DNA from: Candidatus Latescibacterota bacterium
Lineage (GTDB): Bacteria; JAAXHH01; JABIQT01
Direction: 5' to 3'
NCBI GenBank assembly: GCA_018667995.1
Contig: JABIQT010000023.1
Span: 1 to 9,675 of the forward strand
Length of the DNA stretch: 9,675 nt
Shown here: piece by piece, positions 1-9,675 of the stretch
How positions within the stretch are numbered: the first letter of the stretch is position 1
Layout of the letters: the number at the start of each line of letters is the position of its first letter
Made by a program: the position numbers and the translations under genes
Notes under the pieces: model-generated
Told to the model about the DNA's origin: nothing
What the model saw: the letters and a program-made list of their open reading frames with translations, nothing else
Databases searched by the model: none

Positions 1-319
1 CCTCCGGTCCACCGGAGTTCAGAACATACTGTGCCAGGCCCTGAGCGGCCTCGCCGATGGTCCTAACATTTATGCGGTTCGGCCCTGGTCCCATCGTGCC
101 TCGAATACCTCCCGTACCAAACTCGATGGTCTTTCGAAACTGGTCTTCAAGATCCGTTTTTTTCTCCAGTCGGATCGAATCTAGGATTTCGGGCACAAAA
201 GCCGCGTACGACTGGTCCGTCAACCAGAGTCGCAACGATGCCGCTGCAGCCTTAGAGAGATGGCCCTCTTCTGACCATCTGTCTATCGTCTGTAGTCCCT
301 GTTCCACTGTAGTTGCCAT
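1..319 (-). CDS. Phospho-sugar mutase (phosphoglucomutase/phosphomannomutase, PGM2-like), N-terminal part
   Basis: Partial gene: 106 codons are visible and the rest runs off the left edge. The translated minus strand starts with ATG at 319, preceded by an AAAGG-type Shine-Dalgarno about 10 bases upstream. Residues 67-74 read FGTGGIRG, followed by TMGPGPNRIN and then an amphipathic stretch ending in QGLAQYVL. This is the substrate-domain entry of the alpha-D-phosphohexomutase superfamily, closest to the PGM2/phospho-sugar mutase branch (family knowledge: EFGT(A/G)GLRG...G.NRMN). Members isomerise hexose or pentose 1- and 6- (or 5-) phosphates in the cytoplasm through a phosphoserine further downstream, which lies outside the window. 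Substrate (glucose, mannose or deoxyribose phosphate) cannot be told from this part. It is divergent from the gene at 1079, with a large gap between them. Confidence 0.88.
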   Translation of the reverse strand, partial: MATTVEQGLQTIDRWSEEGHLSKAAAASLRLWLTDQSYAAFVPEILDSIRLEKKTDLEDQFRKTIEFGTGGIRGTMGPGPNRINVRTIGEAAQGLAQYVLNSGGPE

Positions 320-1005
320 TTTTCACTGACCTTTTCATATCGCGTTGGATTGTCCCTAGTACATCGCCTGCCCACGAGTTTGGCCCTCCCCATAGATCTG
401 TCACTACAATCAGGATGCTACGGTGACGTGGTCCGGGCCTACAGTGCTTCCATATTGCGAATCACGTTAATGAAAGTATTGTGGCACATAGGCCACATCA
501 AGCTGAAAACGACGGTCAAAGCCATTGCCGAATGACACGAATCAGCCAAAGCTGCCACTTAGTCATGAATGACCTGCCATTATTGAACAATAGGAATAGG
601 TTGGATCGACCGGCGGCCTCAGTTGACAGCGTTTACATTCAAGAAACTACCCCTATTTACACTCGACATAGGACCTATTTATCTGTACATCAACAACTTA
701 CAACGAACCTCTTCGTCTATAATCACCTCATTTAGAATATATGGCACGATGGTTGCATTGAATACCGTCAGAAAGCAGAACTGTGATACACAACGATTCA
801 ACTCGGAGCAGCCCCTGCTAAAACGAACACCACACTCCTGACTCAGTCGGCCCGGGCGGTTTCCCTGCATCCGAGCATAGAACCGCCTTCAAACCACCCG
901 GGCCGACCGGGTCTATCCCCCTTCAGTCATCAAATAAGCTATCCTACGCAACTCAGAAACGTCAAGATCCCGACTCACCAACCACGACCCTATTTCAAAA
1001 TCAAC
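320..1005. other. Gene-free stretch between divergent genes
   Basis: No convincing gene is seen here. The open frames on both strands are short, lack ribosome binding sites and give compositionally odd peptides. Visible items are a small hairpin at 480-497 (TGTGGC, six-base loop, GCCACA), a consensus-like TATAAT at 718-723 without a good -35 box, and the long inverted repeat at 846-907 described separately. The promoter for the left gene was not identified with confidence. Confidence 0.5.
846..907. repeat. 17-bp GC-rich inverted repeat
   Basis: The left arm 846-862 (GTCGGCCCGGGCGGTTT) and the right arm 891-907 are complementary at 16 of 17 positions, with a C-A mismatch at 857/896. They are separated by 28 bases. 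The spacer holds AACCGCC (881-887), which is also perfectly complementary to GGCGGTT (855-861), so a second, mutually exclusive hairpin is possible. No T tract follows on either side and no gene ends nearby, so it does not look like an intrinsic terminator. It could be a REP-like dispersed palindrome, a protein-binding site or the remnant of one. Confidence 0.7.
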
Positions 1006-1034
1006 TTGCCCCAATACGCCGCGTACCCTATATA
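1006..1034 (+). promoter_or_regulatory. Sigma70-type promoter for the NTF2-like gene
   Basis: A TTGCCC box (1006-1011), a 17-base spacer and TATATA (1029-1034) give a near-consensus spacing. Transcription would begin near 1041, leaving a leader of about 38 bases before the GTG at 1079. The -10 box lies inside the palindrome CTATATAGGATATATAG (1028-1044), which could act as an operator. Confidence 0.6.
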
Positions 1035-1044
1035 GGATATATAG
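1028..1044. repeat. Palindrome over the -10 region
   Basis: CTATATA, a three-base centre (GGA) and TATATAG form a perfect 7-bp inverted repeat. It covers the predicted -10 box and reaches the predicted transcription start, the position expected of a repressor site. AT-rich -10 elements can be palindromic by chance, so the role is inferred. Confidence 0.45.
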
Positions 1045-1078
1045 TTATTTCAAAATGGCATTTCTACCGGATTGACCC

Positions 1079-1633
1079 GTGATAAGAAACCATCTGACAC
1101 TCACAGTATTATCTATGCTACTGGCCATTGCTCCCATTCGGCAGGATTTGGTCGCGCAAGAAGACCAGTTGGAGCTTAAGTGGCCCGCACCACAAATGCA
1201 GGAAGTAGAAACAAGTCTCAGAGCCTGGGCAAAAGCCTGGGCCAATAAGAACCCCGAAGCTTATCTCTCTTTCTACTCGGAGACATTTAAATTACCCAGG
1301 GGCACCAAACGCTCAGCGTGGGAGAACGAAAGACGCAAGAGTCTCACCAAACCCGCTTATATCAGAATCACTCTCAAAGATATCGACGTAGAGCTGCTTG
1401 ATACGGATACGGTTCGGACGCGCTTTACGCAGGTATATCGGGCGAGCAACTACTCTGATCAAACCAGAAAGATCATACTGTTCAGAAAAATAGATAATTC
1501 ATGGAAGATTTTAACAGAACAGATTGCCCCGAATCCAGATCGCCCCAAATTTCCCGAAATACTTCCTGGACAGGCGACCAGAATCCAGAGAACCTACCGA
1601 GCAACCCCAACTACCTCACTGCCCGCGAGATGA
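1079..1633 (+). CDS. Secreted stand-alone NTF2-like (Cds6/SnoaL-like) domain protein
   Basis: A 184-residue protein with a GTG start; an in-frame TGA at 1073 blocks any longer frame. Residues 1-27 form a signal peptide (hydrophobic run LTLTVLSMLLAIAPI, likely cleavage near VAQ), so it is exported. Residues about 44-149 form one compact alpha+beta domain: W50 and W54 on the first helix, YLSFYS (62-67), W81 before RR (85-86), a Q-x-Y strand (118-120) and a final WKIL strand (142-145). The same landmarks occur at the C-termini of the L,D-transpeptidase (2821-4047) and of the TPR protein on the minus strand (5242-4049). This matches the NTF2-like domain found behind Cds6-type L,D-transpeptidases. 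A 35-residue Pro/Arg-rich tail follows. No catalytic residues are recognised. The role is probably binding in the periplasm, perhaps of peptidoglycan or of a partner, but that is inference. Confidence 0.8.
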   Translation: MIRNHLTLTVLSMLLAIAPIRQDLVAQEDQLELKWPAPQMQEVETSLRAWAKAWANKNPEAYLSFYSETFKLPRGTKRSAWENERRKSLTKPAYIRITLKDIDVELLDTDTVRTRFTQVYRASNYSDQTRKIILFRKIDNSWKILTEQIAPNPDRPKFPEILPGQATRIQRTYRATPTTSLPAR

Positions 1634-1757
1634 TCCGACTCAGGATCAAATAACGCGTATCTGATACACCCCTGTTATTGCCTGTGCGCTATATGTTTCG
1701 CGTACGCTGTCGGCCCCATTACACGCCGTATACCGGCCGGAACTGCGCCTTATTTCC
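1634..1757. other. Intergenic stretch, no gene seen
   Basis: Between the NTF2-like gene and the next promoter. A weak hairpin overlaps the stop codon (TGATCC 1631-1636, GGATCA 1643-1648) but has no T tract, so it is not called a terminator. Nothing else is supported. Confidence 0.4.
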
Positions 1758-1786
1758 TTGCATTTGCTGCAAAATTCTCGTATTAT
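1758..1786 (+). promoter_or_regulatory. Sigma70-type promoter for the lipoprotein/transpeptidase genes
   Basis: TTGCAT (1758-1763), a 17-base spacer and TATTAT (1781-1786) form a strong sigma70 match. The predicted start is near 1793, giving a leader of about 160 bases before the lipoprotein gene, unusually long. The leader contains a 26-codon frame (ATG 1883, TAG 1961-1963) that stops one base before the ATG at 1965. Confidence 0.6.
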
Positions 1787-1955
1787 TGTGCCTTATTTGG
1801 GTTAGCATTAGGATCTAAGAATAGGATCCTGGCAAGCCTTCGAGCGTTTGCCCGAAGCGTAACCTCTGCCCAAACGTATCCCATGGAAACGCACTGCGGA
1901 GAAATGTCTATATCTCCCAGAGCCAAATCAATATGCCATAAACGGAGTTCAAATC

Positions 1956-2741
1956 TTGTATAGAATGAAATTCCTCTGCAGTGTGTTACTCGCCGCTCTG
2001 GCCCTTGGGTCCTGCAGCGACCAACCACAGCTAATAGGTGAGTCTGACGACGTATTTCTGGTTTCCGTGACCTCCGTCCAGGAGTCGCTGCCCGAAACCG
2101 ACCGGGCAGACTTCTCCACGGCACTCAAGGGCTTTGAGTTTCTTTACGGGGAAAACGCTCTGTCCGTGCTGGCCGATAGCACGCGAATCAAGGAACGGGT
2201 CCGCACGCGACTCAGCGGTATGAATGGCCAGGAAGTACTGGAGCTATGGATTGAGCGGCGCGACCGGGCTATTCGGCAGTTAATGGACAAGAAGGCCGTA
2301 AACGAAGAGGCCCTCGAAAAAATGAAGCCAGTGGAGATTGAACGATCGCGATTTCGTATCAATAGGGCAGGACAGCGTATCGTCGAACTGAAGGTGAAGA
2401 ACAATACGGAGTTTGACATTGCTCACATCTATTTTCGTGGCATCCTGACTTCACGTGGCAGGAGAGCGCCTTGGGTCGACGACACGTTTCATTATCCCTT
2501 TGAGCTGAAACCAGAGGAGTCTGCGGAGCTGAAATTCGCTCTGTTGGGGGCTGTTTGGCAGGATGTACCGGAGGGTAGAAGGAACTTGAAGCTCGAAGTT
2601 ACCGTCATCCGAATCGACAGCGGTCATGAAACACCCATCTACGATGCCTATACCAATCCCTTTACAAAACACGACCTGGAACGCCTCGAAACGTTAACCG
2701 AATTCAAGAAAGCTACGAGCACTGAATCAGACATTGATTAA
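1956..2741 (+). CDS. DUF6694-like lipoprotein with a C-terminal beta domain
   Basis: A 261-residue predicted lipoprotein. The TTG at 1956 is chosen because GGAG at 1944-1947 sits eight bases upstream. An ATG at 1965 gives nearly the same protein, three residues shorter, but is 17 bases from that site. The signal peptide ends in the lipobox LGSC (Cys at residue 20), so the mature protein is lipid-anchored. The next ~75 residues (SVTSVQESL...FSTALKGFEFL...GMNGQEVL) resemble the DUF6694 lipoprotein domain: a serine-rich start, a helix, and a final G-(M/K)-N/T-G/A-(Q/D)-E-V motif. After a charged helix, residues about 140-235 look like an immunoglobulin-type beta sandwich (LKVKNNTEFDIAHIYFRGIL; ELKPEESAELKF). 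It lies 79 bases before the L,D-transpeptidase gene on the same strand and may be co-transcribed. The function is unknown; family assignment rests on motif memory. Confidence 0.72.
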   Translation: MYRMKFLCSVLLAALALGSCSDQPQLIGESDDVFLVSVTSVQESLPETDRADFSTALKGFEFLYGENALSVLADSTRIKERVRTRLSGMNGQEVLELWIERRDRAIRQLMDKKAVNEEALEKMKPVEIERSRFRINRAGQRIVELKVKNNTEFDIAHIYFRGILTSRGRRAPWVDDTFHYPFELKPEESAELKFALLGAVWQDVPEGRRNLKLEVTVIRIDSGHETPIYDAYTNPFTKHDLERLETLTEFKKATSTESDID

Positions 2742-2769
2742 GCTCGTGGCCAAGTAGACCGTCAATGTC
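2730..2769 (+). repeat. Inverted repeat at the lipoprotein/transpeptidase junction
   Basis: GACATTGA (2730-2737), overlapping the end of the lipoprotein gene, is perfectly complementary to TCAATGTC (2762-2769), with a 24-base loop. No T tract follows. It could be an mRNA-processing or stabilising hairpin between the two genes, or chance. Confidence 0.35.
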
Positions 2770-2820
2770 TCGGTGCGGACGCCGGCCGTAGTGCGCGCAG
2801 TCAAAGAGCAGGATTTCTTC

Positions 2821-4047
2821 ATGTCGAGTAACCGCAGTTGGATTTCACGCTGGTTCATTGTGACAGTCCTGTCAATGCTGTTCTCCCTCGGTGACGCGTC
2901 CGCAGAAGGCGATTCGCTTTCTGTAGACGTTTCCGACCTGTCCAGCGTTGAACAAAAGCTACTCTCGGAGGTCATAGATCAAATTCGCTCCTACCGGATA
3001 GATCCGGCAATCGCCACACTGGAGACGATCACCGACCAGTACCCGAAATTCAAGTTGGCGCAACTGATTTACGCTGATCTTCTCATGGCAAAGGCACACG
3101 CTATCAACGGATTCGGCCCATTGAAAGGGCATGCCGAGGAGGAATTGGCAGGACTACTCGACGAAGTTCGAAAACGCTGGAACCACTACGCAACACGGCC
3201 GCTGGCACGAACTATTCCCGCCTACTTCGCCCATCTCAATGGGGAAACAAAATATGCCGTCCTCGTTGATCTGGCTAATTCGCGCCTTTATCTATTTGAG
3301 AATAGCAACGGCGCACCGGCCCTGGTGAAAGACTACTATATATCTCTCGGAAAGAATGGCGCCCGAAAAGACATACAGGGAGACCAGCGGACACCGATTG
3401 GTGTATATCACATCACCGAATACCTCGCTGAAGCCATTCTACCCGATCGATATGGCGACGGCGCGTTTCCTTTGAACTACCCCAATGAATGGGACCGACG
3501 CCTAAACAAGACGGGCTATGGTATTTGGCTGCATGGCACACCATTTGACACCTTTAGCCGCCCGCCACGTTCATCGGACGGCTGCGTTACTCTGAGCAAT
3601 CTGGACTTCAATGAGCTGGCACTCCGGATTGAAATCGTTGAGACACCAGTAATCATCACGGACCAACCCATTGACTGGCTCAGTCTTTCAGCATGGGAAG
3701 AGCGACGCAGGATATTGGCTGACGTTATTGACGGGTGGCGGATAGACTGGGAGAGCCTCGAGAATGATCGTTACCTGAGTCACTATTCTGAGGAATACCA
3801 CGACGAAAAACTGGACTACGCAGGATGGAGTTCGAGAAAGAGGCGGGTAAACAACGCGAAAACCTACATCAAGGTCCAGGTTTCAGACCTCAGCATTTAT
3901 GAATATCCGGGTGAGGACGCTATGGTAGTCGTAACGTTTGCCCAAGACTATGACAGCAGCAACTACCGCCACGCCTCGAAGAAACGACAATACTGGAAAC
4001 GCGAGTCAGACGGTGTCTGGAGGATTGTATTCGAAGGGCCGGGCTGA
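2821..4047 (+). CDS. L,D-transpeptidase (YkuD/YafK-like) with C-terminal NTF2-like domain
   Basis: A 408-residue exported enzyme. ATG at 2821 is chosen over an upstream in-frame GTG at 2773 because AGGA (2810-2813) lies seven bases before it and the signal peptide then starts properly (MSSNRSWISRWFIVTVLSML, cleavage near ASA after residue 28). Residues 40-125 form a helical, TPR-like spacer. Residues 143-280 are the YkuD catalytic domain: GDQRTPIGVY (187-196), the HG pair at H238-G239 and the nucleophile in SSDGCVTLSN (251-260), Cys255, 17 residues after H238. The residue before Gly-Cys is Asp, not the His of the classic SHGC, as is common in the YafK-like branch. Such enzymes form or cut 3-3 crosslinks or lipoprotein-peptidoglycan links in the periplasm. 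Residues 298-405 are an NTF2-like domain (YLSHYSEEY, W336, RR341-342, AQDY, VWRIV) shared with two neighbours. Its stop is one base from the stop of the convergent TPR gene. Confidence 0.9.
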   Translation: MSSNRSWISRWFIVTVLSMLFSLGDASAEGDSLSVDVSDLSSVEQKLLSEVIDQIRSYRIDPAIATLETITDQYPKFKLAQLIYADLLMAKAHAINGFGPLKGHAEEELAGLLDEVRKRWNHYATRPLARTIPAYFAHLNGETKYAVLVDLANSRLYLFENSNGAPALVKDYYISLGKNGARKDIQGDQRTPIGVYHITEYLAEAILPDRYGDGAFPLNYPNEWDRRLNKTGYGIWLHGTPFDTFSRPPRSSDGCVTLSNLDFNELALRIEIVETPVIITDQPIDWLSLSAWEERRRILADVIDGWRIDWESLENDRYLSHYSEEYHDEKLDYAGWSSRKRRVNNAKTYIKVQVSDLSIYEYPGEDAMVVVTFAQDYDSSNYRHASKKRQYWKRESDGVWRIVFEGPG

Positions 4048-4048
4048 C

Positions 4049-4975
4049 CTACCGGTTTACGTTTTCTTGAAGGATCTTCCACTGGCCCTCGAACTGCCCC
4101 AAAACCAGTGTCTTACGCACTTTTGCTCGGAACGAGTTCGACTGATATGATTGGATAAACACCGCATTCGAAGTGCCAGAATCTCCCGGTTCTACCCTCA
4201 AATTCTCCACTACCACATTGATGAATTCCGGACCGACGATACGCACACGCCGGTTTTCCTCCCACGCGACGCGATCCATGCCGTTGGGCAGCCGGAACGC
4301 GGACGCGTAGCTCGAAAGATACCCGGCTACATCCTGACCAGACCAGGCCGCCGCCCAAGCTGTGACAGCCTCTGGAATTGTGTACGACCGGCCATCTTCA
4401 GGCTGGACAGGCTTGACGGAATCAGTCGCTGGTGGTTTAGGCTCAGATGTAACCGAAGCGATAGGCTCAATCGGCTCCGCCACTGGTAGTACTGGTGTCT
4501 CCGACTGCATTTCAGATTGGGACGGGGCATCTGACTCATTTTGCGCTAAAACCTCCGAAATTGCCTCCACTGTCTCGGAGGGCGCGGCCTGAGCCAATGC
4601 AGGCGATTCGACAGGCATGGGCGGAGGTTGGATAAGCATTGTCAAAGCGGTTTCCGGCAGTTCGCGTTCGTCCCAGGAGTCCAGGGCCTTTTCGTAGGCC
4701 TGACCTGCCATAATAGCATATACATCAGTGAGGTTTCGATAAGCAGTGGAATAGGCCTCGTCGGTATCCAGAGCTTGAATCAGGGCGTCCCGAGCCTTGT
4801 TGTATTGATTTGTCGAAGCATAGAGCACGGCAAGATTGTTGTACGGCTCCGGCATCTGTGGATTCATACGGACCAAAGTCTCAAAAACGGCTATAGCTTC
4901 CGCAACGTCTCCTCGTTCCGTCAATACGATTCCCTTGTAAAAGAGCGCCTGCACGTCCCCCGGATTCTGCGAGAG
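4049..4975 (-). CDS. C-terminal part of the TPR/NTF2-like protein, downstream of the amber codon
   Basis: The frame is open from the base after the TAG; the first possible start is a GTG at 4954, giving 301 residues. No Shine-Dalgarno is well placed for it: GAGGAG lies about 24 bases away and a G run ends only two or three bases away. In GTG numbering, residues 1-95 hold about two and a half TPR units (ALFYKGIVLTERGDVAEAI; PEPYNNLAVLYASTNQYNKA; STAYRNLTDVYA). Residues 105-190 are a Pro/Glu/Ser/Ala-rich, probably disordered linker. Residues 193-300 are the NTF2-like domain: W200, W204, YLSSY (212-216), W231, RR (235-236), QSY (268-270), K281, WKIL (292-295). This copy is closest to the stand-alone protein at 1079-1633. 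Expressed alone it would lack the membrane anchor and stay cytoplasmic. Confidence 0.6.
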   Translation of the reverse strand, partial: LSQNPGDVQALFYKGIVLTERGDVAEAIAVFETLVRMNPQMPEPYNNLAVLYASTNQYNKARDALIQALDTDEAYSTAYRNLTDVYAIMAGQAYEKALDSWDERELPETALTMLIQPPPMPVESPALAQAAPSETVEAISEVLAQNESDAPSQSEMQSETPVLPVAEPIEPIASVTSEPKPPATDSVKPVQPEDGRSYTIPEAVTAWAAAWSGQDVAGYLSSYASAFRLPNGMDRVAWEENRRVRIVGPEFINVVVENLRVEPGDSGTSNAVFIQSYQSNSFRAKVRKTLVLGQFEGQWKILQENVNR

Positions 4976-5242
4976 CTACTCCTCGACCTTTGCCTCAGCC
5001 TGGCCGATTTTTCCGCGCTCCAATAGGTCCATTATCTCTGCGGTCGTACCGGTGATGTGACCTGATGCATATCGCAGGCGGGTACGCGGCTGGCCATCGA
5101 TCACTCTCTCGGCGGAGACGACATCCGAGGCACTGACGCGCGTCTGCCATAAGCCTACAGCGGCGGCTATGGCCAGAAGTACGGATGCAGCTACAAGAAT
5201 CGATATGATTTTTCGACTATTTCGTGGGGTAGCGTCGGTCAT
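4976..5242 (-). CDS. N-terminal part of the TPR protein: membrane anchor, ended early by the amber codon
   Basis: An 88-residue open frame from ATG 5242 to the TAG at 4976-4978. This start, rather than the ORF's upstream extension to 5299, is supported by AAGGAAG about eight bases upstream and by a promoter placing the transcript start near 5260. Residues 1-10 are basic and polar (MTDATPRNSR), and residues 11-31 are one transmembrane helix (IISILVAASVLLAIAAAVG), so the remainder would face the periplasm. Residues 65-88 (EIMDLLERGKIGQAEAKVEE) are the first helix pair of the TPR domain, cut short. By itself this piece would be a small membrane peptide with no clear role. Confidence 0.6.
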   Translation of the reverse strand: MTDATPRNSRKIISILVAASVLLAIAAAVGLWQTRVSASDVVSAERVIDGQPRTRLRYASGHITGTTAEIMDLLERGKIGQAEAKVEE

Positions 5243-5266
5243 CTCACTCTTCCTTTCGGGTTGCAA

Positions 5267-5295
5267 TATATACCGTGGAAGGGCAAGGCCGTCAA
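5267..5295 (-). promoter_or_regulatory. Sigma70-type promoter for the TPR gene
   Basis: On the minus strand, TTGACG (5295-5290), exactly 17 bases, then TATATA (5272-5267). The expected transcript start near 5260 leaves about 18 bases before the ATG at 5242, with AAGGAAG in between. The strong promoter suggests the gene was functional recently or still is, despite its amber codon. Confidence 0.65.
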
Positions 5296-5543
5296 CCAAA
5301 TTTCATGGAGATGTTATATTGGATAAGATTAGGTTTGGACGGTCAGATCGTGGCCTGGTATAGAGGGCATACTTTGGGACATGTATACTTATGCCCTTTT
5401 GTTTTTCCAGGTAAAAGGCGCCAAGCTACAAAATCCGTCCTGGTCAAGGATCTTGTCGCAGTACCCAACAAGGCGCCATCACCGATCATTACCGACATTT
5501 TCAGGTATTATCATGTGGTAACTTGCTACAAGGGAAGTCTGTG
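5296..5543. other. Intergenic stretch between the TPR and ankyrin genes
   Basis: No gene is supported. It holds a plus-oriented terminator-like hairpin (5364-5406) and two copies of AAGGCGCCA (5415-5423 and 5470-5478) 55 bases apart. No clear minus-strand terminator was found after the ankyrin gene, which ends at 5544. Confidence 0.4.
5364..5406 (+). terminator. Rho-independent terminator-like hairpin, plus orientation
   Basis: AGGGCATA (5364-5371) pairs perfectly with TATGCCCT (5390-5397) across an 18-base loop and is followed by TTTGTTTTT. The T tract is present only in the plus direction. No plus-strand gene lies close upstream; the nearest is the L,D-transpeptidase gene ending at 4047, whose read-through would be antisense to the TPR gene. 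The long loop makes it a moderate candidate. Confidence 0.5.
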
Positions 5544-6323
5544 CTAATTACCCGAGCTTTGGAGCTGCTTGATCAAGTCGGCCGCAGATGGTCCAGCGGC
5601 ACCCTGACCGCCCCCGTTCTTCAGCAACTCGGAGAAGGCAGGATTCTTGGACATGGCACCCAAATCCTTCTTCTTCAGCAACTGAGCCAACTCCGGGCGT
5701 CCTTCCGAAGCCGCTTTGACGAGAAACTCCTTTCCTTCATCATCCACTTCATTGACCTGGGCACCATTCTGCATGAGTAACCGGGCGATTTCAGAATTCT
5801 TACTCTTCACTGCTTGAACTAACGCGCTTTGAGTACCGCCCCCAAGAGGATCCATATTTGCCCCCTTCTCGAGCAACATCTTCACTATACCGGAATTGCC
5901 GGAAGTGACCGCATTGACCAGTGCGGTATTCCCCTTTCCGTCAATGGCGTCAAGGGCAACTTTCTGTTGAAGAAGCAACGCTAAGATATCGTCATGTCCC
6001 TCGCCCACGGCGGCCTGCATCACACTCGTGGAAAACATATTCACCGCATTGGGGTCAGCTTCGTACTGTAGAAGAAGATCTGCAATATCTGTGTCTCCCT
6101 GTTGTGCCGCCCACCAGAGTGCCGTCTGCCCCCATTCGTCTTTTCCGTTGACGTCAACACCACTGTCAAGGAGGCTCTCGACCTCACCCAAATCCCCCAC
6201 CGTTGTAGCCCTTATCAACTCTTCCGGTGACGGTGGAGTACAGGCGAGTACAGCAAACATGCAAAGGGCAGTAATTCCAATCGAAAGTCTATGTATTAGT
6301 CCAGGGAAAAATGAGTGCGCCAT
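5544..6323 (-). CDS. Ankyrin-repeat lipoprotein
   Basis: A 259-residue protein. The frame is open further upstream into the channel gene, but ATG 6323 is chosen because GGAG sits six bases before it and a signal peptide follows directly (MAHSFFPGLIHRLSIGITAL). The lipobox is VLAC, with Cys28 as the lipidated residue. Residues 32-225 hold about six ankyrin units: ELIRATTVGDLGEVESLLDS, GQTALWWAAQQGDTDIADLL, SVMQAAVGEGHDDILALLLQ, GNTALVNAVTSGNSGIVKML, SALVQAVKSKNSEIARLLMQ and a last degenerate unit. The end is a Gly-rich tail and a short amphipathic helix (ADLIKQLQSSGN). Ankyrin stacks bind protein partners; here the partner would be periplasmic or envelope-bound. The gene begins 79 bases after the K+ channel gene on the same strand, so co-transcription is likely. 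The partner is unknown. Confidence 0.87.
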   Translation of the reverse strand: MAHSFFPGLIHRLSIGITALCMFAVLACTPPSPEELIRATTVGDLGEVESLLDSGVDVNGKDEWGQTALWWAAQQGDTDIADLLLQYEADPNAVNMFSTSVMQAAVGEGHDDILALLLQQKVALDAIDGKGNTALVNAVTSGNSGIVKMLLEKGANMDPLGGGTQSALVQAVKSKNSEIARLLMQNGAQVNEVDDEGKEFLVKAASEGRPELAQLLKKKDLGAMSKNPAFSELLKNGGGQGAAGPSAADLIKQLQSSGN

Positions 6324-6402
6324 ACACGTCTCCACTTTGGATGGTAGATTGAGGATAGACCGAAAAAAGCGAAATAGGGATATCGAGGCACGGGAAGGAG
6401 AG

Positions 6403-7254
6403 CTATGACTCATCCTTCTCAATATAGCGCCCCACGGTATCCGCAAATAATTGAAATTGAGCGTTGCCGCCATGGATCTGTCGGAGAAGGCAAGGGGTCT
6501 CTCCCTCGGGCCCTTCCCTGTGTACTGCACTGCAGTAGGCGTCCATCAACCGTTCATCCAGGGCCTCGCGCGTGCCTTGGTAGGCATCCGCGAAAAGGCC
6601 GAATACCATACCGACAATTCCAATGCCAACTATCATCAAGACAATGCCAACGGCTTGACCGGTCGGAGAGACTGGAAATTTGTCACCATATCCTACTGTT
6701 GTCGATGTCACGACCGCCCACCAGATCCCGTCCGCATATTCCTCAAAAACATCGGGCTGAACACGCCTTTCGACCTCATATATAACCGTAGAACCTATCA
6801 TCAGATAAATGACGATTATCAACAGGATGGGAGTAAATCGAGTCCGGCCGTGGTACAGCTCTGCCACGAAATCCTGCATCTTGGGACTATATCTGAAGAT
6901 CTTCAACATACGGAGCGTACGCGCACCACGCACAAGGCCGAGTGTTTCTTGCGTCAATCCGGGATAGAACCCTAGCCAGAATGGTAATATGCTTATCAGA
7001 TCAATCCATCCAAGGGAGCTCGTCAGGTAGTTTCTCTTGTTCTCAGCACACAGAATTCTCATCAGATATTCCAGAGTGAACACACAGGCAAGGACCCGCT
7101 CGATCCAGATATAACCTGGCCATGCATCGGTGTCCAGACTGCTCTGGGTATGCCCGAACTGTAGCTCGATCAGGTAGAGCACCATGTTTATTCCGAGCAG
7201 AGACGGTACGAGCCGGTGCACCGCGCTGAGAAGACGGTCCCTGGCTTGAGACAT
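6403..7254 (-). CDS. Voltage-gated potassium channel, six-transmembrane type
   Basis: A 283-residue inner-membrane channel subunit, expected to work as a tetramer. ATG 7254 is preceded by a strong GGAGGA Shine-Dalgarno. Segments in order: S1 (about 14-32), S2 (48-68, WIERVLACVFTLEYLMRIL with E62), S3 (82-97, with D85), S4 (105-121) with basic residues every third position (R109, R112, R115, K118, R121), S5 (140-160), pore helix (172-185), selectivity filter TVGYGD (186-191) and S6 (200-222). The voltage sensor and filter are complete, so a working K+-selective channel is expected. The C-terminus (223-283) is a short cytoplasmic tail with no RCK or cyclic-nucleotide domain. It follows the PspA-like gene after a hairpin and precedes the ankyrin lipoprotein. 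No clear promoter was found in the 90 bases upstream, so it may depend on read-through. Confidence 0.93.
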   Translation of the reverse strand: MSQARDRLLSAVHRLVPSLLGINMVLYLIELQFGHTQSSLDTDAWPGYIWIERVLACVFTLEYLMRILCAENKRNYLTSSLGWIDLISILPFWLGFYPGLTQETLGLVRGARTLRMLKIFRYSPKMQDFVAELYHGRTRFTPILLIIVIYLMIGSTVIYEVERRVQPDVFEEYADGIWWAVVTSTTVGYGDKFPVSPTGQAVGIVLMIVGIGIVGMVFGLFADAYQGTREALDERLMDAYCSAVHREGPEGETPCLLRQIHGGNAQFQLFADTVGRYIEKDES

Positions 7255-7280
7255 AGCATTCCTCCGAACATAACTTGCTA

Positions 7281-7319
7281 AAAAGCCAAACCCATCGGAC
7301 AGTGGACTCCGATGGGTTT
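7281..7319 (-). terminator. Rho-independent terminator after the PspA-like gene
   Basis: AAACCCATCGGA (7288-7299) and TCCGATGGGTTT (7308-7319) form a perfect 12-bp stem with an eight-base loop. On the minus strand the stem is followed by GGC and five Ts. It lies 25 bases after the stop of the PspA-like gene. The T tract is short and set back by three bases, so termination may be partial, leaving some transcript for the K+ channel gene. Confidence 0.7.
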
Positions 7320-7344
7320 GATAAAACTGGCTGGAAAAATCCGG

Positions 7345-8112
7345 TCAGGATTTCTTTTTCAGTGCTGCGAGACGATCCTTGGCAGAGGTTTGGGGCAGTG
7401 CCTTTCCTTCGGCCGCTTTCAGCGCGGCCGCGATATTCGGATCATCTGAGATTTCTTTTTTCCCAAAGGTATCGATTTTGAGCTCAGAAGACCGCGTGGA
7501 AGCTTCAGCCTTATCGGCCTCCTTCTCCATGGCGGACAAAGCCGTCTGGAGCCCGCCCATGGAAGAAGTCAAGCCTGCCGCTTCTCTTACGCTTTGTGCC
7601 CGTTCATCGGCACGCTCCTTCTTCAAACTGGCCTGTTCCATTCTACGCTGTGCCTTCTGCAGGTTCGTCTTGGCCTGCTTGAGTTTCTGGGCAGCCTGAT
7701 CATAGGACTCTCGGAGCTCCGCGGCGAAAGCCTCAGCCTCCGCATCCTCTTGCCGTTCGCGGTCGATCTCGGGCTGGAGGCCCTCCAACTCGACCACGAG
7801 CTTCCCCAGGCTACTTTCGAGCGTCTCACGCTGGGCATCATCTACCTCTGAAATCTGCCCTTCCAGTCGTTCTGCGGCTGACATATACTTATCGTACTGG
7901 GTCACCAGGGCAGCCGTCTCGTCATGGTCCTTTCGGACGGCGGCCTCGGCCTGGCCCACACGCTGACCAAGTTTATCCAGTTCTTCCTCCATCAAAGAAA
8001 TCTGCGCATCGGATGCTGTTTCCGGATCAAATGCAACAATCGCCTGCGTAAACTGTTCAAGCGCATTGCCCGCTTGCTTCTTACCTAGACGCGACAGGAA
8101 ACGCCAGATCAT
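7345..8112 (-). CDS. PspA/IM30-family (YjfJ-like) coiled-coil protein
   Basis: A 255-residue, highly charged, almost wholly helical protein. It starts at ATG 8112 with GGAGAAG about ten bases upstream, 14 bases after the DUF2491 stop. Residues 1-22 (MIWRFLSRLGKKQAGNALEQ) suit a membrane-binding amphipathic helix like that at the PspA N-terminus. Residues about 35-190 are long coiled coils with no signal peptide or membrane span. The end, TSAKDRLAALKKKS, resembles the SAQDVLARL end of E. coli YjfJ. PspA/Vipp1/IM30 proteins are ESCRT-III-like; they polymerise on the inner face of the cytoplasmic membrane and stabilise it under stress. The adjoining DUF2491 gene fits the yjfJ-yjfK pairing known in enterobacteria. 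The body of the sequence is divergent, so the family call relies on architecture, C-terminus and neighbours. Confidence 0.75.
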   Translation of the reverse strand: MIWRFLSRLGKKQAGNALEQFTQAIVAFDPETASDAQISLMEEELDKLGQRVGQAEAAVRKDHDETAALVTQYDKYMSAAERLEGQISEVDDAQRETLESSLGKLVVELEGLQPEIDRERQEDAEAEAFAAELRESYDQAAQKLKQAKTNLQKAQRRMEQASLKKERADERAQSVREAAGLTSSMGGLQTALSAMEKEADKAEASTRSSELKIDTFGKKEISDDPNIAAALKAAEGKALPQTSAKDRLAALKKKS

Positions 8113-8126
8113 ATTGGGTCTTCTCC

Positions 8127-8828
8127 TTAGATTACGGTAATTTCACTCTCAAGTAGATCAACGCCCAGATACAGCTCAACGACGCCGTCTCCGACGCTGA
8201 TCAATAGAAATTCGTCGACTCGTTGCGGATCTTCTTCGTCTTCAGGATTGCCGGAGGCTACACGAAAATACGACATGGCTTGCTGTTCCTCAACAACGAC
8301 ATCTTCGCCGAAAGGGTCTTTAAGGAAGCGCTCTCGAATATGAACGGGATCTGCCTGGTATTCTCCATCGACCCATTCACGGGAGTATAGCAGCTCTTCA
8401 GGCTCACCATGTAGCACATCGGGCGACCCCACGATGCCGGTTTCGGGATCTATCCATAGATCCCAGTCAGCATCTGAACTGGGGTATATTTCGCGATCGA
8501 GTACGTAGAGTCTACACTCGGCGACCACGTCATTCTCGGTGACTATCTGAAGAAAGGACTCCGCCTTTTCCAAATAACACCGATGGGCAAATACGTTCCC
8601 GCCCAGGTCAATTTTGCCCACCGTCTCGACCACCGCAGGAAATCGGGGAAACTCGAACTGTATCAGTCCGTGATAGGCCAACAGCGCCGGCTCATCAAGC
8701 TCAATGAGTCCTCCAATCTTTACCTTGAGTGGAAGGTTCTCATCGACACGTTTCTTCTTCCGCTTGAACAGGCCGACTACGTCCGAGGTCTTCTTCTTGG
8801 CCACAGCCCGTATGATATTATAGCTCAT
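8127..8828 (-). CDS. DUF2491 (YjfK-like) protein
   Basis: A 233-residue cytoplasmic protein without signal peptide. It begins with a basic segment (KKKTSDVVGLFKRKKKR), then the DUF2491 hallmarks: LPLKVKIGGLIELD (32-45), VGKIDLGG (70-77) with HRCYLE (82-87), a strand rich in aromatic and acidic residues, YPSSDADW (115-122) and GIVG (131-134). The C-terminal third is acidic and beta-rich. The ATG at 8828 directly follows the stop of the upstream gene (8829-8831) with no spacer, and GAGAGGA serves as its Shine-Dalgarno, so translation is probably coupled. In E. coli the homologue YjfK lies beside the PspA-like YjfJ, the same pairing as here. No biochemical role is established to my knowledge; association with PspA-like membrane maintenance is inferred from context. 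Confidence 0.85.
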   Translation of the reverse strand: MSYNIIRAVAKKKTSDVVGLFKRKKKRVDENLPLKVKIGGLIELDEPALLAYHGLIQFEFPRFPAVVETVGKIDLGGNVFAHRCYLEKAESFLQIVTENDVVAECRLYVLDREIYPSSDADWDLWIDPETGIVGSPDVLHGEPEELLYSREWVDGEYQADPVHIRERFLKDPFGEDVVVEEQQAMSYFRVASGNPEDEEDPQRVDEFLLISVGDGVVELYLGVDLLESEITVI

Positions 8829-9675
8829 CTAATCCTCTCCGACAACTTTCTCTATTTCATCTATAGATCGCCATACGGCATCCTCGAATAAGGTCATCGG
8901 GCGGCTACCATAGGAGTCAACCCATCTGTGGGAGAGTATAAGAACGGCTTCCACCTTGATGGTTTCTAAACTACTGTCCCCAAAGTACCCAAAGATCCAT
9001 CCGTCCTGCAAATTGGCATAAGTCTCGTGGGGGATAGTGGCCACGCTGTAAATCGTGTTGCCGAATTGATCCTGCGCCTGGCTGAAGTGGTGTTCATCTA
9101 CAGCAACGAGATTGATTTGCGTGGCGTAATTAATGTTAGCCTTCTTGAGAAGGTCCGAGTTCAATCCCCCGACAAAGAGCATGACGGCATCGGGATTATT
9201 TGCTACCTGACTCAACGCTTCATCGTAGCTGGCATACCTGGTCTCAAACTGGCTATATCGCTCATCCTGCAGCACAAATCCCTCCCAGGCACCGTGAGTG
9301 CCCGAGCCGCGGGGACCAAGATAGACCACATGCGTTTGGGGGTCCAGGTCTGTAATCTTCAAAATCTCACTGGTCTCGTTGACCAATAGTTGCACGAACT
9401 CGGTATACAGCGAGGCTTGCAGACCAACAAGCTGCTCCTTGGCCTCGGGATTTTTCCGAAGGTAAGCGTTAAGTACGTCACTCTGAACGATGACCGCGTC
9501 AGCGTCGTTGCTGATAAGATCCTCGAGATTTTCCACAGACCCGTTGCTCGTATTCAGGCTGATTTCAAACTCAGGAAGCCCAGTTTCAAGTATCGTACCA
9601 AATCGATGGTAGTTTCCATTGGACACGCCTGTATTCAGCACGAGCTGTGGCCGCTCGGTGTCTGCCGTCCCTACG
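8829..9675 (-). CDS. TAXI-type TRAP transporter solute-binding protein, N-terminus cut by the window edge
   Basis: The frame is open to the right edge, with 281 residues visible; a GTG at 9641 lies inside the conserved N-terminus (ERPQLVLNTGVSNGNYHRFG) and is not the start. The signal peptide must lie beyond the window. Landmarks of the TAXI family of TRAP solute receptors are TGVSNGNYHRFG, then SNGSVENLEDLISNDADAVI with VQSDVL, and LGPRGSGTHGAW (family: TG..GGTYYPLG, GS.EN...L..G..D...VQSD, G..GSGT). Such proteins bind organic anions, such as dicarboxylates or amino acids, in the periplasm. The gene abuts the DUF2491 gene and heads the visible operon. No TRAP membrane subunit appears here, so it may act as a ligand sensor for this cassette instead of a transporter part. 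The C-terminal third is divergent from typical receptors. Confidence 0.8.
   Translation of the reverse strand, partial: VGTADTERPQLVLNTGVSNGNYHRFGTILETGLPEFEISLNTSNGSVENLEDLISNDADAVIVQSDVLNAYLRKNPEAKEQLVGLQASLYTEFVQLLVNETSEILKITDLDPQTHVVYLGPRGSGTHGAWEGFVLQDERYSQFETRYASYDEALSQVANNPDAVMLFVGGLNSDLLKKANINYATQINLVAVDEHHFSQAQDQFGNTIYSVATIPHETYANLQDGWIFGYFGDSSLETIKVEAVLILSHRWVDSYGSRPMTLFEDAVWRSIDEIEKVVGED

Follow-up and report, generated by a model that had tools for sequence, protein, structure and literature searches.

We analyzed a 9,675-nucleotide (nt) stretch of the genome of a Candidatus Latescibacterota bacterium, hereafter the window (GenBank assembly GCA_018667995.1, contig JABIQT010000023.1, positions 1 to 9,675; contig C906 of a fragmented assembly of 1165 contigs, ~85% complete), in which three genes encode proteins containing the same NTF2-like domain, Cds6_C: a stand-alone secreted protein, an enzyme with a YkuD catalytic domain, and a protein with tetratricopeptide repeats (TPRs) (Table 1). 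Cds6_C has been described before, as have the fold it adopts and its fusion to the enzyme; what is new is the conserved TPR-NTF2 neighbor of the enzyme, which carries a different version of the domain and occurs in roughly half of the Burkholderiales genomes sampled.

Table 1. Coordinates of the Cds6_C genes and associated features, counted in nt from the first letter of the window.
Feature	Position	Strand	Description
Stand-alone secreted Cds6_C protein	1079..1633	+	184 aa: signal peptide, one domain, disordered tail
Cds6_C of stand-alone protein	1205..1522	+	Pocket Y62, F70, R85, K131, E147; TPR-type, Arg at the Pgp2 K257 position
Putative DUF6694 lipoprotein	1956..2741	+	Just upstream of the enzyme; 37% identical counterpart in the same place in G013
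Csd6/Bd1075-like YkuD enzyme	2821..4047	+	408 aa: signal peptide, helical N-terminal region, YkuD, C-terminal Cds6_C
YkuD catalytic domain	3253..3657	+	H238, C255; Y211/W236 equivalent to Csd6 Y133/W158; Thr257 at the LD-transpeptidase Arg position
Cds6_C of enzyme	3721..4035	+	Pocket Y318, Y326, K340, K388, E405; enzyme-type, Lys
TPR-Cds6_C gene	4049..5242	-	Convergent with the enzyme gene; one in-frame TAG
In-frame TAG of TPR gene	4976..4978	-	Orthologue column mostly aromatic
TPR region 3' of the TAG	4661..4951	-	Pfam and AlphaFold2
Cds6_C of TPR protein	4061..4375	-	Pocket Y212, F220, R235, K281, E297 (numbering of the 301-aa fragment)

All three domains match the Pfam profile PF24125 (Cds6_C) above its curated cut-off of 27 bits: the stand-alone protein with 68.6 bits (E 7e-19), the C-terminus of the YkuD enzyme with 94.2 bits (E 8e-27), and the C-terminus of the TPR protein with 55.4 bits (E 9e-15). 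In pairwise alignments over ~100 residues, the three copies are 34, 27 and 22% identical (E 4e-25 to 4e-8), in agreement with the original prediction, made from the letters of the window, that one NTF2-like domain is present in three proteins. The landmarks it had pointed out, namely, a Trp-containing helix, a YLSxYS-like motif, a Q-x-Y strand and a closing Trp strand, correspond to positions conserved across 48 sequences of the family, among which (in stand-alone numbering) W50, W54, Y66, K131 and I144 are invariant and Y62, F70, F116, Q118, Y120, W142 and E147 are kept in at least 90%. Structure prediction points the same way: AlphaFold2 models of the stand-alone and TPR copies both show a three-helix, four-strand NTF2 cone (domain pLDDT ~93-98), and for both, the top matches retrieved by Foldseek from the PDB are Bd1075, Pgp2 and Csd6, whereas the fold of the enzyme copy was assigned by sequence match to solved structures. 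Each of the Pgp2 pocket positions Y233, F242, K257, K307 and E324 has the same residue or a conservative substitution in all three window copies, the substitutions being K-to-R plus one F-to-Y. Cds6_C, present in all three window proteins, is also the NTF2-like domain found in the LD-carboxypeptidases Csd6, Pgp2 and Bd1075. In other Pfam domain architectures, Cds6_C is fused to SPOR, AMIN and LysM modules, which fits a cell-wall role for the domain. Two further copies are encoded elsewhere in the window genome, one stand-alone and one with an AgmX/PglI (TonB-like) tail (L019:2564-3418, contig C992).

The clustering of the three domains had been attributed to local duplication, an explanation that their phylogeny contradicts. 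In a tree of 111 Cds6_C domains, the six non-enzyme copies from the window's order fall into one group (support 96/90) that also contains every one of the 22 betaproteobacterial TPR-attached domains, and the next group consists of SPOR-fused domains. The domain of the window enzyme is nearest to that of the enzyme in G013, a genome of the same order, and then to those of the betaproteobacterial enzymes, so that the enzyme-type and TPR-type groups each include betaproteobacterial partners. Placement of the three window copies in one clade was rejected by the approximately unbiased (AU) test (p=4e-5); a sister relationship of the stand-alone and TPR copies was neither shown nor rejected (AU p 0.48). 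The two types also differ in the pocket, where the position of Pgp2 Lys257 is occupied by Lys in 116 of 119 enzyme-fused domains and by Arg in 76 of 77 TPR-fused ones, a split of which we found no account in the open-licence literature. Given the separate groups in the tree, the AU rejection and the Lys/Arg split, the domains of the enzyme and TPR types belong to two old subfamilies and are paralogues kept side by side, not products of local duplication.

The YkuD enzyme had been taken for an L,D-transpeptidase involved in peptidoglycan cross-linking, an assignment that now appears unlikely. Five residues of the enzyme show no variation among 23 aligned sequences: the catalytic His238 and Cys255, Lys183, and the D-Ala pocket residues Tyr211 and Trp236, equivalent to Csd6 Y133 and W158. 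Two residues after the catalytic Cys, all 23 sequences have Thr, Val or Ala (Thr257 in the window enzyme, Val in most relatives), and the Arg present there in many LD-transpeptidases is absent. Because the D-Ala pocket is kept and this Arg is missing, the sequence leads us to expect LD-carboxypeptidase activity, with trimming likelier than cross-linking. The best solved relatives in profile matches over YkuD and NTF2, namely, Bd1075, Pgp2 and Csd6, share its two-domain layout, and each of them is an LD-carboxypeptidase. A true L,D-transpeptidase, making 3-3 cross-links or anchoring lipoproteins with the NTF2 proteins as accessories, would be compatible with the intact His and Cys of the YkuD domain, but in view of the missing Arg, the invariant Tyr and Trp, and the nature of these relatives, we regard it as improbable. 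We also considered the hydrolase DpaA (YafK, LdtF), a YkuD protein that likewise lacks the LD-transpeptidase Arg and whose NCBIfam model gives a weak match to one relative of the enzyme. The Tyr/Trp D-Ala pocket sets Csd6, Pgp2 and Bd1075 apart from DpaA (PMC10653827), which has Met in place of the pocket Trp (Csd6 W158); with Trp in 23/23 sequences, an amidase identity was rejected.

The TPR gene, originally described as encoding an anchored TPR protein starting at position 5242, holds up with respect to its TPR and Cds6_C parts, but not as a continuous frame: it is interrupted by the in-frame TAG, which the earlier reading missed. In the alignment, 19 of 26 orthologues have Tyr or Phe in the TAG column, and the frame is open in the TPR-Cds6_C genes of G013 and the betaproteobacteria. 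Either the TAG is an artifact of assembly or sequencing, the genome being fragmented, or the gene was lost recently; a fragment translated 3' of it would have no signal peptide. The N-terminal hydrophobic stretch of the full frame could equally well be a membrane anchor or a cleaved signal peptide. Neither for this protein nor for the stand-alone one was a specific NCBIfam family found.

The pairing of the enzyme with a TPR-NTF2 protein recurs far beyond the window. In G013, the two genes are convergent and nearly touching, with the lipoprotein gene upstream of the enzyme, as in the window. Scanning named genomes that carry the enzyme yielded 80 loci, selected by enzyme similarity and nearly all betaproteobacterial (~37-48% identity). 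In 77 of them, the enzyme gene is immediately preceded by a second NTF2-domain gene in the same orientation, the two overlapping by a median of 4 bp; TPRs were confirmed in 74 of these 77 genes, the other three being cut by a contig edge, and two of the three loci lacking such a gene are at a contig end. All 26 partner proteins sampled besides that of the window consist of TPRs and Cds6_C according to Pfam. Since these loci had been picked by enzyme similarity, we additionally applied the Cds6_C model alone to an even sample of 100 genomes from the Dechloromonas agitata order (Burkholderiales), inferring pair identity from spacing and frame length. The domain was detected in 54 genomes, of which 49 have an adjacent pair, always on the same strand (49/49), compared to ~0.2 adjacent pairs expected by chance in a simple random-placement estimate, so that chance adjacency was rejected. 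These two data sets bear out the expectation that the TPR-fused copy recurs beside the enzyme, and show co-occurrence of the enzyme and TPR genes well outside the original locus. We found no description of this pairing with an LD-carboxypeptidase in the open-licence literature. A phylum-wide survey comprised 16 sampled genomes.

Two further arrangements were encountered. In G245, an unrelated genome, a TPR-NTF2 gene lies directly upstream of a YkuD-NTF2 gene (L150:4662-8153), and the pocket of its TPR copy has Lys, not Arg; here the pairing may have arisen independently. In G199, two adjoining NTF2-domain genes occur without any YkuD domain (L147:5869-8293).

Adjacency as such could reflect shared expression within an envelope gene cluster, the two proteins having a peptidoglycan-binding module and a neighborhood in common without acting on each other. 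In two betaproteobacterial loci, the genes following the pair are indeed general envelope genes, PpiA, PpiB and LpxH, and 24 of the 122 Cds6_C copies in the order survey are scattered outside pairs. We nevertheless consider this explanation rather unlikely: in the window and G013, the pair is adjacent in another lineage, with different flanks and in the opposite, convergent orientation, indicating that adjacency outlives a change of orientation, and in the order survey all 49 pairs are codirectional, stop/start overlaps being typical of the 80 loci.

The stand-alone protein, proposed earlier as a third member of the group, is not a recurring companion of the pair. There is no stand-alone NTF2 gene in the G013 locus, where its place is taken by a gene whose secreted product ends in an AgmX/PglI (TonB-like) domain (L021:7127-7606), and no third NTF2 copy in the betaproteobacterial pair loci within up to ~8 kb of DNA per side. 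The protein is a TPR-type domain without TPRs and is probably a later side product in the window's lineage that would bind peptidoglycan or compete for the site. Competition could in principle be extended to the TPR-NTF2 protein, both restricting trimming, as competitors or inhibitors, by occupying sites on peptidoglycan. The TPR-NTF2 protein keeps the pocket without any catalysis, and the stand-alone protein has little beyond the bare domain; however, a role beyond competition is suggested by the close coupling of the TPR gene to the enzyme gene and by the conservation of the TPR part, and we judge this scenario unlikely.

We somewhat favor a two-gene module for peptidoglycan trimming, in which an LD-carboxypeptidase and a periplasmic TPR partner both hold peptidoglycan via their NTF2 pockets. 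The secreted enzyme, of the Csd6/Pgp2/Bd1075 type, would cleave the terminal D-Ala off tetrapeptide stems, and the NTF2 pocket at its C-terminus would hold peptidoglycan such that trimming occurs at chosen sites. The TPR partner would likewise be secreted, and its pocket, of a distinct subfamily with Arg for one Lys, most likely holds peptidoglycan as well; its TPR part would dock the enzyme or another envelope protein and thereby set where or when trimming takes place. The NTF2 pocket of Pgp2 binds peptidoglycan, as demonstrated by sacculus pull-down and NMR, and both activity in cells and cell shape depend on the residues of this pocket (PMC8038945); the NTF2 domain of Bd1075 sends the enzyme to one cell face (PMC8938487). 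In addition, 9 of 29 sampled enzyme-bearing genomes outside the betaproteobacterial group encode two NTF2 domains in one enzyme chain, which also places two such domains with each enzyme.

Several points weigh against such a module. Csd6 E110, which is needed for activity and together with H155 recognizes meso-diaminopimelate (mDAP), corresponds to Gln186 in the window enzyme (Glu in 19/23 relatives), and H155 to Tyr233 (His in 11/23); given these differences, we call the enzyme 'Csd6-like', its activity being putative. Unless the base was misassembled, the in-frame stop means that the window genome may have lost the TPR partner. Beyond this enzyme subfamily, few genomes (2 of the same 29) have a separate second NTF2 gene next to the enzyme gene, and Bd1075 and Pgp2 are examples of single-gene enzymes that function with no TPR partner known. 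The partnership, peptidoglycan binding and carboxypeptidase activity of these particular copies are all inferred. As a more tentative extension, to which we assign a clearly lower likelihood, the Lys and Arg pockets could constitute a two-pocket system reading different peptidoglycan states or neighboring stems, with the TPR protein directing the carboxypeptidase in lineages not known for helical shape.

Among characterized proteins, Bd1075 of Bdellovibrio bacteriovorus (7O21) is the closest, being the best profile match over YkuD and NTF2 (E 8e-65) and the best fold match for the stand-alone and TPR domains, and it too has a small residue at the Arg position (V158, compared with Thr in the window and Val in most relatives). 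It differs in being monocistronic according to its paper, in having a short N-terminal loop where the window enzyme has a helical region, and in a C-terminal extension with W303. Pgp2 of Campylobacter jejuni (6XJ6) and Csd6 of Helicobacter pylori (4XZZ) share the YkuD-NTF2 order, the pocket, and the D-Ala-binding Tyr and Trp, but no TPR-NTF2 partner has been described for either; Csd6, moreover, has an N-terminal dimerization domain and differs at the E110 and H155 positions. Periplasmic TPR cofactors of the NlpI/CpoB type are secreted TPR proteins linked to peptidoglycan hydrolases; to our knowledge, they have no NTF2 domain, and the NCBIfam NlpI model picks up just the generic TPR signal, far under its cut-off.

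The surroundings of the pair in the window show some additional features. The stop codons of the enzyme and TPR genes are 1 bp apart, tail to tail (4047-4049), and with a single base between them, read-through transcripts would be mutually antisense. Beyond the TPR gene, the window and G013 alike contain ion channel, coiled-coil, DUF2491-like and substrate-binding genes; the first three (the coiled-coil protein PspA-like by eye) lie in a row at 6403-8828, in the same order in G013, a row that, we presume, recalls the neighbors of E. coli yjfJ-yjfK. In the intergenic region upstream of the stand-alone gene, a GC-rich inverted repeat was noticed by eye at 840-915 (ggcccgggcggttt ... aaaccacccgggcc).

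Most members of the order of Dechloromonas are not known to be helical. The presence of Cds6_C in 54 of 100 genomes of this order contrasts with the view of the Pgp2 authors, who thought the NTF2 domain to be restricted to helical cells (PMC8038945). For Bd1075, no mechanism for targeting one side wall was known to its authors (PMC8938487). As for the way in which cell-shape carboxypeptidases select their sites, a pair of neighboring genes in culturable, non-pathogenic betaproteobacteria, one of them encoding a conserved TPR partner that has a pocket version of its own, offers a genetically simple test of targeting.

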